NCBI RefSeq assembly: GCF_016858125.1
Contig: NZ_CP064781.1
Span: 3,481,501 to 3,545,500, forward strand
Source: Azospira restricta
GTDB lineage: Bacteria > Pseudomonadota > Gammaproteobacteria > Burkholderiales > Rhodocyclaceae
Reading direction: 5' to 3'
DNA: 64,000 bases
A program made the translations under genes and the position numbers. Positions 1 through 4,355 of this stretch are shown here, one piece after another. The notes beneath the pieces were generated by a model. That model made no database searches. It had not been told where the DNA came from and worked only from the letters and a program-made list of their open reading frames with translations. Each line of letters opens with the position of its first letter. Position 1 is the first letter of the stretch.

Positions 1-825
1 GCAGAGTACGCCAAGGGGCGTGGCCTGTCGGAGCGGAAAGCGTGTGCGCTGACCCGTACGGCGAGATCGGCGCTCCGTTACGAATCACGCATGCAGAAGA
101 AGGACGCACCGGCACTGGCGGCCATGCGCATCCTATCGGCACAGTACCCACGATACGGCTACCGGCGCATTCAGGTCTTTCTCGAACGCCAGGGGCAGCG
201 GATGAGTACTGACCGGGCTTGGCGCCTGTGGCGCAAGGCAGGGTTGCAGGTGCCGCGGAAGCGGCCAAGAAAGCGGATTGCGCTGTCTCGCCCCCGGCCG
301 CAAGCGCCGCTTGCAGCCGGGCAGGTATGGGCTTACGACTTCGTATTCGACGCCTGCGCCAACGGTCAGCAGCTGAAGTGTCTGACAGTCGTCGATGAAT
401 ACACGCGAGAGAGCCTGGCGATCGATGTCGCCGGTTCGATTCGTTCCGGGAGAGTGATCGAGGTGCTGTCACAACTCATCAGCACGCACGGTGCGCCCAA
501 GATTCTGCGCTCGGACAACGGCCCCGAATTCGTTTCCCGGGCGCTGCTGCGCTGGGCGGCCAACGAGAATCTCGACATGGCACTGATCGACCCCGGCAAG
601 CCGTGGCAGAACGGTATGGCAGAAAGCTTCAACGGCAAGTTCCGGGATGAATGCCTGTCGATGGAGTGGTTCAGGAACCGAACGGAAGCCAAGGTCGTAA
701 TCGATCAATGGCGTCAGCATTACAATGAAATCCGTCCGCATTCGAGCCTGGGCAACCAGACTCCGGCGGCATTCAAGAAGCAGTGTCTTTCAACCACCAA
801 ACCGGGAGCCATTTTCCAGGAATGA
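1..825 (+). CDS. IS3-family transposase OrfB, 5' end cut by window
   Basis: This is the integrase-like catalytic subunit of an IS3-family transposase, which as the OrfAB fusion cuts and joins the element ends. The frame is open from base 1, and residues before the first ATG at 91 (for example GLSERKACAL) match the usual start region of OrfB, so the gene begins upstream of the window. The rve catalytic core is intact. The DDE residues appear as Asp in AYDFVFD, Asp in LRSDNGPEF and Glu in QNGMAESFNGKFRDECL, the last two being the classic IS3 blocks. The C-terminus YNEIRPHSSLGNQTPAAF is also typical. The closest subgroup is probably IS407. The enzyme looks functional as far as it can be seen. 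Confidence 0.92.
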   Translation, partial: AEYAKGRGLSERKACALTRTARSALRYESRMQKKDAPALAAMRILSAQYPRYGYRRIQVFLERQGQRMSTDRAWRLWRKAGLQVPRKRPRKRIALSRPRPQAPLAAGQVWAYDFVFDACANGQQLKCLTVVDEYTRESLAIDVAGSIRSGRVIEVLSQLISTHGAPKILRSDNGPEFVSRALLRWAANENLDMALIDPGKPWQNGMAESFNGKFRDECLSMEWFRNRTEAKVVIDQWRQHYNEIRPHSSLGNQTPAAFKKQCLSTTKPGAIFQE

Positions 826-851
826 GTGGCCCGAAGAATTCAGGCAGGTCA
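1..851 (+). mobile_element. IS3-family insertion sequence, right part
   Basis: The window opens inside an IS3-family element. The visible part holds the orfB transposase and a short right end. The left end, orfA and the first codons of orfB lie outside the window. The right boundary is placed near 851 because the interrupted lipoprotein gene on the other strand stops making sense there, and the complement of the last bases reads TGACCTGCC, a plausible terminal inverted repeat starting with TG. The boundary cannot be confirmed without the left end and the target duplication. Confidence 0.75.
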
Positions 852-1330
852 AATGCACCACCTTTCACCGCAGTGGTATTTCCTATGTCGGCTATCGGGC
901 TACCTGAGAAAGGGAAACATACTTGCGCATCCACCTTGGTGACTAATCCAGCCACCAAAATTTCGGCTTGCCACGCCGAAGGGTCACCAAACAGTGCGTA
1001 GGGGTCACCGACTATTTGGTAGTTCCGGCTTTGGAGTTCATTTCGGAATGTCTCGGTCAGCTCTTCATCGGTGATGTTTAGCCTGCCACCTCGCCAACCA
1101 ATATCTGCACCAGGAAAACACCCCCAGCCGTGGCGAATTTTTCCGATTTGTTCGCCAAGAGGAATCTTCGCTAGAACCTTCCGAAACTCAATTGGCTTGG
1201 TCTGATGGCCGGATGGAACTTCGAGGGGAGCCCGAACTTCGGCTTTTTGCACAGGATTAACCGTGCAAGCGCTCAAAATTCCTGCGGCTAGCACAGATAG
1301 GAATGAAGGGGTAAGAGACCAACGATTCAT
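773..1330 (-). pseudogene. lipoprotein gene truncated by the IS3 insertion
   Basis: The N-terminus has a lipoprotein signal with lipobox LSAC (Cys22), so the product would be sorted to an envelope membrane. Residues 25-160 are a soluble domain with conserved-looking stretches (GWGCFPGADIGW, CFPFSGSPIADIGNTTAVKGGAF). It resembles lipoproteins found in trypsin- or caspase-linked envelope gene sets in betaproteobacteria, but I cannot name a family. The last roughly 23 codons (773-851) lie inside the IS end, so the native C-terminus has been lost and replaced by an unrelated tail. The missing part should lie beyond the left end of the IS, outside the window. Base composition is lower in GC than the core genes, like the neighbouring cassettes. 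Confidence 0.6.
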
Positions 1331-1401
1331 TGGGTAGCACCTACGTCAAAGGTGAGGAGCGTGCCGCCGACAGGGGAAGCGTTCCCTCGACTGCTCACGG
1401 T

Positions 1402-2115
1402 TCATTTCGGCTCAGGCATCTTCTCTTCGAGAGCTCTTATGAACTGCGGGGGAAATTGAGCGCCACGCGAGCGGGCAGCATTCACCTTTTGCCACGCTTC
1501 AGCAAAGCGGCCTTCGAAATACAGAGACCGTGCCCAACTGCGCCAAGTATTCGGATACGTCGGGTCAAGCTTGGTACTTTCCTCAAAAAACCGATTCGCC
1601 AACGAAAAGTACTTCGTGCGCTCACTGGAGCCGTTCGCACTGTTGTTTGCCTTCACTGAATAAACCGAGGCTGTGTCTGTGAGCAGGGCAACCTTTTGAT
1701 ACTCATCGTCAACGAGTTGGTTGGCTTTCTCAAGCTGCTTAATGGACTCTTCAAGTTGCCCTTGCTCAACTAAGACACGCCCAAAGCCCCAATAGGGACG
1801 GAAGCTGTTTGGGTTTAGTAACCACGATTGGTTGTACCTGCGCATGGCGTAGTCAAGGTTGCCTTCTCTCATGTATTTATCGCCTTCCATCCACCAAGCC
1901 ACACTTGCTTTTTCTCGGCCTCCGAGACCTTCCGATGCCTGCTTAATAAATTCCTCGTCGGCGCGTTTCAGTACTTCGGGACGTTCAAGCACCGGCTGCC
2001 CATACATTGGGACATTGTCTATGCGTGTGCCGCCTGTCGTTACGCACCCAGACAGAAAACCGACAGCAGAGACAACGGCAGCAATAAGAAATTGGGAATG
2101 GAGTGATTTGGACAT
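1402..2115 (-). CDS. TPR-repeat lipoprotein (cassette-like)
   Basis: A 237-residue protein with a lipoprotein signal: lipobox LSGC with Cys24 when translation starts at 2115. That start is preferred over the ATG at 2142 because GAGGAA lies about 10 bases before it. Two or more tetratricopeptide-like repeats follow, such as the segments around NLDYAMRRYNQSWLLNPNSFRPYWGFGRV (split by helix breaks), QLEESIKQLEKANQLV and RFFEESTKLDPTYPNTWRSWARSLYFEGRF. It is probably a periplasm-facing scaffold for protein contacts; no enzyme motif is visible. It sits as a single gene with a putative attC just upstream of its start, as expected of an integron cassette. The specific role is unknown. Confidence 0.8.
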   Translation of the reverse strand: MSKSLHSQFLIAAVVSAVGFLSGCVTTGGTRIDNVPMYGQPVLERPEVLKRADEEFIKQASEGLGGREKASVAWWMEGDKYMREGNLDYAMRRYNQSWLLNPNSFRPYWGFGRVLVEQGQLEESIKQLEKANQLVDDEYQKVALLTDTASVYSVKANNSANGSSERTKYFSLANRFFEESTKLDPTYPNTWRSWARSLYFEGRFAEAWQKVNAARSRGAQFPPQFIRALEEKMPEPK

Positions 2116-2136
2116 GGCGTGGAAATTCCTCAAGAG

Positions 2137-2229
2137 CGCCAACGAGTGGAGCTAATCAGTACCGGAGCGCGAAGCGCGGAGGGAACCCAACAGCGCAGCC
2201 GTTGGGCGTCAGGTTGAGCAGGGTTAGGC
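2137..2229 (-). other. putative integron attC site 1
   Basis: Read on the minus strand, the site starts with GCCTAAC, a perfect R'' core (RYYYAAC) whose TAA is also the stop codon of the MORN gene, a common arrangement in cassettes. It then holds CTGCTCAACCTGACGCC, the stem-loop CCCAACGGC...GTTGGG and a second stem AGCGCGAAGCGC-like block. It ends at a degenerate R' CGTTGGCG just before the TPR gene. The arm sequences resemble attC sites of chromosomal integrons of environmental beta- and gammaproteobacteria as I remember them. The R' core has mismatches, so recombination activity is uncertain. Confidence 0.55.
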
Positions 2230-3045
2230 ATTTCGGGAGTGGCAGACGGTGTTCAGACGATGCGAATGAATGGGCGGCGCAAGTTCTCGCTGAGGCGTTG
2301 GAACAAACTTTAGGAAAAAGCCACGATCAAAAGTGCATGTTCCGATTGCCCCCTCTATGCTGCAGATGCCATCGCCATTCACCGCTCCCGCGGCAAAGGG
2401 ACCTTCGAACCAGTCGCCATTCACCCAAGTGATGCGACCGACGCCGTGGTATTCGCCGTTCTTGAACTCGCCCTCATAGGTCTCGAGGCTTGGCCGCACA
2501 AGTTTCCCTAGTCCATTCCATGAGCCATTTTGAAAATGGCCGTCGTACATTCGGCCATCTTCGAAGAAGAACTTTCCTTGGCCGTTGTAACGGCCGTTTG
2601 CAAGATAACCTTCGTACTTACCAACGTCTTTGATTATGAATATGCCATAACCATGCGGCAGATCTTTTTGATACTCGCCTTCGAAGACGTCACCATTTGC
2701 ACCACGATATGTACCTTTTCCATGCCTTTGGCCATCCTTAAATGCGCCACGATATTCACCGCCGTCGCGGGATGTAAGTACTCCTTCTCCGTTGTAGAGC
2801 CCATTTTGGAACGAGCCGGTATAGCGATCCCCATCCTTCCAAAGGATTTTTCCTTCTCCGTGAAATAGCCCTTCGCGAAAATGGCCTTCATAGAGACCGT
2901 TATCGGGCAGGGTGGCAGTACCGTACCCATTCATTCCAGGATAGTAGGAAGACCTGCAGTCTCGCTCTTCCGCATTAACACCTGAAGCAATAAATGCGGT
3001 CACCGCAAAGGCCAGCGCAAAGGCAGTTGGTAGTTTCGGGAGCAT
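2224..3045 (-). CDS. secreted MORN-repeat protein
   Basis: A 273-residue protein with an N-terminal signal peptide (residues 1-25, ending VNA-EER). It consists almost wholly of MORN repeats of about 23 residues with the pattern Y-x-G-x-F-x-x-G-x-x-x-G-x-G. Examples are YEGHFREGLFHGEGKI, YTGSFQNGLYNGEGVL, YRGAFKDGQRHGKGTY, FEGEYQKDLPHGYGIF, YEGYLANGRYNGQGKF and YEGEFKNGEYHGVGRI. MORN domains form an elongated beta-sheet used for membrane or protein contact; no catalytic part is attached. The start at 3045 has AGGAA a few bases upstream. The stop lies inside a putative attC core and another attC-like site precedes the start, so this is the best-supported gene cassette in the window. Confidence 0.88.
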   Translation of the reverse strand: MLPKLPTAFALAFAVTAFIASGVNAEERDCRSSYYPGMNGYGTATLPDNGLYEGHFREGLFHGEGKILWKDGDRYTGSFQNGLYNGEGVLTSRDGGEYRGAFKDGQRHGKGTYRGANGDVFEGEYQKDLPHGYGIFIIKDVGKYEGYLANGRYNGQGKFFFEDGRMYDGHFQNGSWNGLGKLVRPSLETYEGEFKNGEYHGVGRITWVNGDWFEGPFAAGAVNGDGICSIEGAIGTCTFDRGFFLKFVPTPQRELAPPIHSHRLNTVCHSRNA

Positions 3046-3080
3046 AAAATTCCTAGCAGTGCTGATATGTTCAACGTGCT

Positions 3081-3149
3081 ACCCAACGTGTAGCCAACCG
3101 GCGCCGAGCACGCGTAGCTTGCTTGGCGTCCGGGTAAGCAATGTTAGGA
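3081..3149 (-). other. putative integron attC site 2
   Basis: Read on the minus strand this 69-base element runs from TCCTAAC (R'', one mismatch) to GTTGGGT (a perfect R' match to GTTRRRY). Inside, GCTTACCCGGACGCC and GGCGCCGGTTGGC are imperfect inverse arms (L''/L') around a central hairpin region, which is the folded layout of attC. It lies exactly between the stop of the 3151 gene and the start region of the MORN gene. Confidence 0.6.
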
Positions 3150-3150
3150 A

Positions 3151-3576
3151 TCATTGCGTGAGACGCCGAAGCGGGCCCATGCAAGCGTAAAACGACGGCT
3201 CTTGGCACATGACCATTTCGCTCATCGTGGGGTGGAAAAAAATAAAGATGGTCACCGTGTTACCAACGGGCGTTCCACCGGGTTTGCCATCACAGCCAGT
3301 GCGACCATTGCTCTTGGTCACCACATCCGTCATACGATAGAACCCATTCAGATCGGGTTTGTCGCTAATAGTAAATCGGCTCTCGCCTATCTCTTCGCCG
3401 CTGGTCACTACGGACGTATTATCCGGGCGGTAGTCGTACACCTCTGAACAGTTGTTCTTTGCATACGTCCATGCCCATTTCCCATACAACGGATGTTGCG
3501 CCGATGAATAACCGACGTTTGCAACGGCTGAGGTTGCTAGAAAACAGATGAAAAGCGCTGCAGCGGTTGTCTTCAT
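3151..3576 (-). CDS. small exported protein of unknown function
   Basis: A 141-residue protein with a cleavable signal peptide (MKTTAAALFICFLATSAVA). The mature part has a lipocalin-like start, HPLYGKWAWTYAKNNCSEVYDYRPDN. It contains about five cysteines (NCSE, GCDG, MCQE, ACMG), suggesting disulphides in the periplasm. I do not recognise the family firmly. The pattern 'G-K-W ... C-x-E-x-Y-x-x-x-x-D-x-T' followed by a beta-rich body resembles small periplasmic lipocalin-like proteins. It is the first gene of the putative cassette run, followed directly by an attC-like site. Codon use is less GC-rich than in the core genes. Confidence 0.7.
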   Translation of the reverse strand: MKTTAAALFICFLATSAVANVGYSSAQHPLYGKWAWTYAKNNCSEVYDYRPDNTSVVTSGEEIGESRFTISDKPDLNGFYRMTDVVTKSNGRTGCDGKPGGTPVGNTVTIFIFFHPTMSEMVMCQEPSFYACMGPLRRLTQ

Positions 3577-3600
3577 GATGTGATGAGTCCCAGGGTGTGT

Positions 3601-3756
3601 TCACAGCAACCAGATATAGACACATGCGAGATGCAAGAAGGCGTTGAAGCGATGGGCGAGCTTGTCATATCTATTCTGATTGAGTATTTGCCCGACAGTC
3701 GGGTCTTCCAGCGGCGGATAGTCTAGGCGGTTTCTGTGACGTTGGCATCACCCTAT
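3601..3756 (-). pseudogene. IS5-type transposase, C-terminal fragment
   Basis: The minus strand reads an uninterrupted stretch (C Q R H R N R L D Y P P L E D P T V G Q I L N...) that ends in NRYDKLAHRFNAFLHLACVY followed by IWLL and a stop at 3601. The NRYDKLA...FLHLA pattern is the C-terminus of IS5/IS1031-type transposases. An in-frame stop precedes it near 3757, where the IS481-type remnant begins, so only about 50 codons survive. Confidence 0.65.
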
Positions 3757-4355
3757 TCGGTTGGGTTTTCGATAGCGGCCGGGTTGTCGAAGCGAAGATT
3801 GGGCAGTGCCTCCATGCCGAGCGCCTCGCGCAGCGCCGGCGTCCGGCCACCGAGGCGGTAGCCCTGATGGGTCCGGTCGAGGTTGTAGTAGCCCATGAAC
3901 TCGTCGAGGTCGCGCTGAATCTCGTCGATCGACAGGTAGAAGGTTTCCCGCCCCTTCACGCGGAAGCATTCGCCGAGCAGCCTCCGGTTCATGCGCTCGA
4001 CTAAGCCGTTAGTACGCGGGCTCCTGACCTTGGTGTTGCGGTGTTCGATGTCTTCGATGGCGAGCAGCAGCTCGTAGGGATGGGACTCCGGCTTGCCGCA
4101 GAACTCGCGGCCGTTGTCGGTCAGGATCGCCTGCACCGGCACGCCGGCGCGTCGTAGAACGGCGGCACGCGCTCGTAAAGGAGATCGCAGGCGGTGACCG
4201 GCATCTTCGAGCTGTTGTACTTGGCGAAGGCGAGCGAGCAGAAGGTGTCGCGGTGATAGCCAATGATCTTGCATGGCACGGGCGACGTTGCCGAGTTCAT
4301 CGGCCAACTGCAGCAGCGAAAGCTTGCGTTTAATACTCTGAGAAAGTGCGGTCAC
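3753..4355 (-). pseudogene. IS481-type transposase with internal deletion and frameshifts
   Basis: The ends belong to an IS481-type DDE transposase. The N-terminus MTALSQSIKRKLSLLQLADELGNV is the usual start with the helix-turn-helix, and the C-terminal half (AILTDNGREFCGKPESH, VRSPRTNGLVERMNRRLLGE, YYNLDRTHQGYRLGGRTPA) carries the second Asp and the Glu. The middle is missing. In a shifted frame the N-terminal part continues GYHRDTF and then jumps to CSLAFAKYNSSK, which in intact relatives lies more than 100 residues downstream after a second DTF. The first catalytic Asp is lost, and at least two frame changes (near 4285 and 4150) are needed to follow the homology. The gene is dead. Confidence 0.8.

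Follow-up and report, generated by a model that had tools for sequence, protein, structure and literature searches.

Results

Genes and insertion sequences at the locus

The window, the whole 64,000-nucleotide stretch analysed here, comprises bases 3481501-3545500 of a complete genome of about 3.98 Mb. Near its left end are four single genes, all on the minus strand, in agreement with the initial annotation, which had placed a remnant integron cassette array at 773-3576. Gene 1 (852-1330) is the 5' part of a lipoprotein gene, cut after ...KGGAF by an IS3-family element. To its right lie the genes for a TPR lipoprotein (1402-2115; Pfam TPR_11/TPR_2), a MORN-repeat protein (2224-3045; Pfam MORN, E = 1.6e-35) and an exported protein of 141 amino acids (3151-3576). 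Read from the sequence, gene 1 and the TPR protein carry lipoboxes (LSAC and LSGC). The 141-aa protein had also been called a lipoprotein, a label its sequence does not bear out: its Sec-type signal ends ...SAVA-NV, with no lipobox and no Cys at +1. This signal and the Sec-type signal peptide of the MORN protein were recognised by eye and with a crude hydropathy measure. Fold prediction gave a confident eight-stranded beta model for the 141-aa protein (pLDDT 87.5), and comparison of this model with the PDB returned weak lipocalin-like and small-barrel matches, none with E < 0.001.

The low GC content described earlier is real. The four-gene stretch has 52.3% GC against 69.4% across the remaining window, where no other 2.7-kb stretch falls below 65.0%. 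A promoter scan of window 800-3800 found no sigma-70-like site.

Both ends of the array are bounded by insertion sequences or their remnants. Window 1-851, on the plus strand, is the right-hand portion of an IS3-family element of 1205 bp with an HTH_21 and rve transposase; the complete element (G000:C1:3481147-3482351) begins 354 b left of the window. As it ends at 851, the last ~26 residues of the open reading frame 773-1330 are IS sequence and the true gene 1 is truncated, so the proposed span holds for 852-3576 and not for 773-851. An intact homologue of gene 1 in another genome (G206; 236 aa, 80% identical, with a weak CsgG-like match below the cut-off) runs ~75 residues further, and the sequence beyond the IS3 element is unlike that continuation. 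An adjacent deletion is therefore likely. The attC of gene 1 itself is gone.

The genome has five copies of this IS3 element, all with the same ends. The copy lying between the integrase gene and the cassette array of the host's integron (see below) is 100% identical to that in the window. Two copies have 4-bp target duplications and three have none, the window and integron copies being among the latter; crossed target duplications between copies were looked for and none was found. The array goes on left of the element, with an attC and an open reading frame for a 76-aa membrane protein (MSWFWSKSRTGK..., L008:9212-9441, minus strand), beyond which lies a response regulator gene.

At the upstream end of the array are a probable C-terminal remnant of an IS5-family transposase (3601-3726, minus strand) and, adjoining the array, a degenerate rve-type transposase fragment (3753-4355, minus strand; Pfam rve_3). 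The first has a single copy in the genome and was assigned by tblastn; the matches were weak (best listed E = 0.03), and several were to annotated IS5 transposases.

An intact attC and a probable second site in the cluster

The initial annotation had proposed attC-like cores at all three junctions and a covariance-model search as the check. We built a model from 29 attC sites, none of them from the window, taken from 11 other genomes and the host's own integron array. Pairing is kept in 91% of its cells, with covariation in all helices and many compensatory changes. The model is home-made rather than that of IntegronFinder, and its E-values come from a shortened calibration.

The search matched sites of the cluster. 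The attC of the 141-aa cassette (3149-3081, minus strand) gave a full-length match of 28.6 bits, with E = 4.3e-5 in the 64-kb window and 0.0027 in the genome. It has both boxes (R'' TCCTAAC, R' GTTGGGT), L'' and L' arms and, in the first arm on the minus strand, an extrahelical A whose position fits the direction of the genes. It also folds better than shuffled sequence (z = -3.75 for the plus strand; 0/200 shuffles as good). Of the proposed junction cores this one stood in full; at the other two the R' box differs from the one proposed or there is no R''.

A probable second attC of the cluster, also on the minus strand, lies outside the window, 490 bases from its left end (L008:9511-9442, genome position C1:3480942-3481011). 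It is a moderate site, at 19.7 bits, with E = 0.0018 in 14 kb and 0.5 genome-wide. The cluster thus contains two attC sites found by the home-made covariance model, 3.6 kb apart with an IS between them. Across the genome the model gave ten matches at E < 1: five in the integron array, two in the cluster and the others in three other places.

A simple scan for R boxes plus a helix, which in the window found only 3149-3081, was replaced by the covariance model; it is not evidence alone because it yields 3.6 matches per shuffled 64 kb. A simple helix scan gave a score of 106 to a 126-nt attC-like site in another genome (G024, L063:14984-14859), which has an unusually long, near-perfect stem and was excluded from the model. 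Rfam at gathering thresholds gave no attC family match in the window, the lone match being an unrelated sRNA, 5_ureB_sRNA (RF02514), at 24692-24407 on the minus strand (130.6 bits against a gathering score of 40).

Two decayed junctions

The attC of the MORN cassette (2229-2137, minus strand) has decayed. The stop codon of the MORN gene, TAA, does lie within the R'' core GCCTAAC (2229-2223), as had been seen. The GTTGGGT at 2191-2185, previously taken for R', belongs instead to an internal hairpin; relatives place R' at 2143-2137, where GTTGGCG aligns opposite their GTTAGCC. The spacer between the MORN and TPR genes shares 90.4% identity across 83 nt with an attC (L054:10801-10883) in the integron of a genome of the same genus (G003), and it gave a local model match at 2229-2185 (14.3 bits). 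In the alignment with that attC the L' arm has changed from GGCGCAGGTTAGC to GGTACTGATTAGC, and the main L''-L' helix is consequently lost.

The spacer between the TPR gene and gene 1 retains a remnant of the TPR cassette's attC (1399-1338, minus strand). It has no R'' core: aligned to the attC of the TPR cassette in three genomes, the spacer has a 12-base gap at the R'' position and a damaged R', GTAGGTG at 1344-1338, whose counterpart upstream of the gene 1 homologue in G206 reads GTTAGGT. The local model match (1393-1345, 8.0 bits) is not significant alone. Neither of these two spacers folds better than shuffled sequence.

Cassettes in other genomes

Homologues of the TPR lipoprotein were found in a Rhodocyclales MAG of the same genus (92% identical), a Gallionella MAG (86%) and the betaproteobacterium SCN1 (62%). 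In each of the three (L113, L114 and L116) the homologue forms a one-gene cassette that has an attC site on either side and other neighbours. DNA identity extends across window 1394-2145 in the same-genus MAG (88%) and over 1401-2144 in Gallionella (L114; 83%), where its ends are the cassette boundaries. Gene and attC thus move as a unit among different neighbours for the TPR protein and, in part, for the 141-aa protein, a homologue of which (41% identical, in G126) lies within a seven-attC array.

Each of the four genes has its own patchy distribution among the genomes searched. Those of gene 1 and the MORN gene are sparse, and neither was seen as a cassette in these genomes; no close homologue of the MORN gene was found in 200 family genomes. 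The initial annotation had held that the same four genes in conserved order without attC sites would speak against its reading, and no such arrangement was found in the other genomes searched, none of which had all four genes. Plasmids searched for the four proteins yielded no close relatives. An empty site was sought in six genomes of the same genus and none was found, because all six lack the response regulator and cyanase genes that flank this locus.

The host integrase and other attC sites

A profile search agreed with the initial annotation that the cluster has no integrase. Looking for intI, as had been suggested, led to a full-length integron integrase at C1:1715962-1716906, 1.77 Mb from the cluster. 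It scored 476 bits (cut-off 265) and is the sole integrase above the family cut-off in the genome; the cassette array adjoining it has 55% GC, compared with about 52% in the cluster. The cluster itself has no adjacent integron integrase and is not a complete integron, with intI and attI next to the array. Integrases are common across the family, several relatives having more than one.

Further attC sites lie elsewhere in the genome, away from the integrase. One very strong single site (C1:10956-11021, plus strand, 66.9 bits) follows a 96-aa open reading frame, a weak single site is at C1:1675634-1675699 (minus strand), and C1:1759257-1759319 and 1758713-1758777 (minus strand; 38.9 and 16.4 bits) form a possible two-site cluster. 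In the main array an IS110/IS1111-type transposase gene (L006:16272-17405; G000:C1:1712272-1713405) splits an attC, leaving R'' at about L006:17687 and the remainder at 16222-16146. This insertion is similar to those of the known IS1111-attC group, which targets attC.

Discussion

We conclude with high confidence that window 852-3576, on the minus strand, is what remains of an array of integron cassettes with no integrase close by, a small CALIN. The earlier observation is thus confirmed in part, and its core reading, a remnant cassette array lacking an integrase, is supported. Several findings count against this assignment. Just one window attC gave a full, significant match, where a textbook array needs sites at three junctions; the homologues of gene 1 in G206 and of the 141-aa protein in G094 have no detectable attC; and no close relative of the MORN gene is a known cassette. 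The low GC, the insertion sequences or remnants on both sides and the failure of two of the three window junctions to fold better than shuffles could be accommodated by an ordinary, laterally acquired low-GC island of envelope genes bounded by IS, with the attC-like sites as chance palindromes. We consider such an island extremely unlikely. Chance palindromes do not account for held-out model matches that are correct in position, strand and orientation, for a MORN spacer 90% identical to a real attC, or for DNA homology that stops at the R' boxes. The attC-flanked homologues, found for the TPR gene in three genomes, refute the island for that gene and nearly do so for the 141-aa gene.

This CALIN may have come to lie apart from intI by off-target insertion of its cassettes, by a rearrangement, or because a second intI was lost. 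The cassettes may have been inserted singly by the host IntI acting in trans, at a locus that never had an intI, as has been proposed for CALINs (PMC8618304). This origin, which we hold tentatively, fits the full-length intI in the same genome, and the lone attC sites at C1:10956, 1675634 and 1759257 likewise point to scattered insertions; no secondary target site is identifiable, however, at a locus where insertion sequences damage both outer ends. Relocation of a block of the main array by an IS-mediated rearrangement is somewhat doubtful. It is suggestive that the identical 1205-bp IS3 element separates intI from the main array and also interrupts the cluster, and that these two copies lack target duplications when two of the other three have them. 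The flanking bases of the two do not cross-match, though, which does not bear out a simple exchange, and an adjacent deletion accounts better for the gene 1 side. It seems rather unlikely that the cluster is what is left of a second, older integron that lost its intI in place. The decay of its sites suggests age and several relatives do have more than one integrase, but the neighbourhood yielded no fragment of intI, and the genome matches besides the true intI are weak and of a kind also seen in control genomes.

Within the CALIN reading, each gene would have arrived together with its attC in a circular cassette, which IntI inserted in a single orientation, so that the attC behind each gene would be its own. 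The cluster was probably made by the host's IntI or its ancestor, and off-target insertion or rearrangement may have detached it. Mutation of R boxes and L arms would be reducing its mobility. In established integron biology the attC strand that IntI folds and recombines is the bottom one, and CALIN cassettes can be mobilised in trans (PMC8618304, PMC12444791). The cassette ending at 3081 is expected to be the most excisable of the four; with an integrase still present elsewhere in the genome, its excision would be possible in principle. The MORN and TPR sites are expected to be nearly dead.

As a lead, the signal peptides suggest that the set of cassettes may alter the cell envelope, as the initial annotation supposed. 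All four products are exported, which is high against published signal peptide rates of 10-30% in cassettes (PMC8618304) and 11.6% in Xanthomonas cassettes (PMC12444791), although this was counted after the fact. By the crude hydropathy measure, the arrays that bear the TPR cassette (L113:2851-5794, L114:530-2621 and L116:2553-6956) have several other lipoprotein cassettes, a possible co-occurrence. Exported products make up 3/3 in the first and 2/3 in the second; the same measure gave few lipoproteins in the host's own integron array and the G126 array. It is highly improbable, in our judgement, that TPR-bearing arrays in this lineage are enriched for exported or envelope proteins, that cassette shuffling swaps the envelope set and that this CALIN is a fixed envelope module.

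The cluster is a genuine but ordinary example of a known element and changes no principle. It provides a readable case of the death of a cassette array, in which one attC is intact, its neighbour has a mutated arm and the next has lost an R box; these stages can be seen while an integron persists elsewhere in the genome and relatives retain intact counterparts of site or cassette. It also adds an exported TPR lipoprotein cassette common to Rhodocyclales and Gallionella. Like published CALINs (Cury et al. 2016; PMC9024848; PMC12444791), it consists of same-strand single-gene cassettes with attC and no adjacent intI, in a genome with a complete integron elsewhere and with insertion sequences close by. 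Published CALINs have almost six attC sites on average (PMC9024848), whereas this cluster is small and decayed, with one strong, one moderate and two broken sites. It shares with the chromosomal (sedentary) integrons of the Rhodocyclales attC types common to the family's integrons and a TPR cassette that is also present in G003, and with the host's own chromosomal integron the same IS3 element in both arrays. It differs from the Rhodocyclales integrons in the degeneracy of its sites and in having no integrase beside it.
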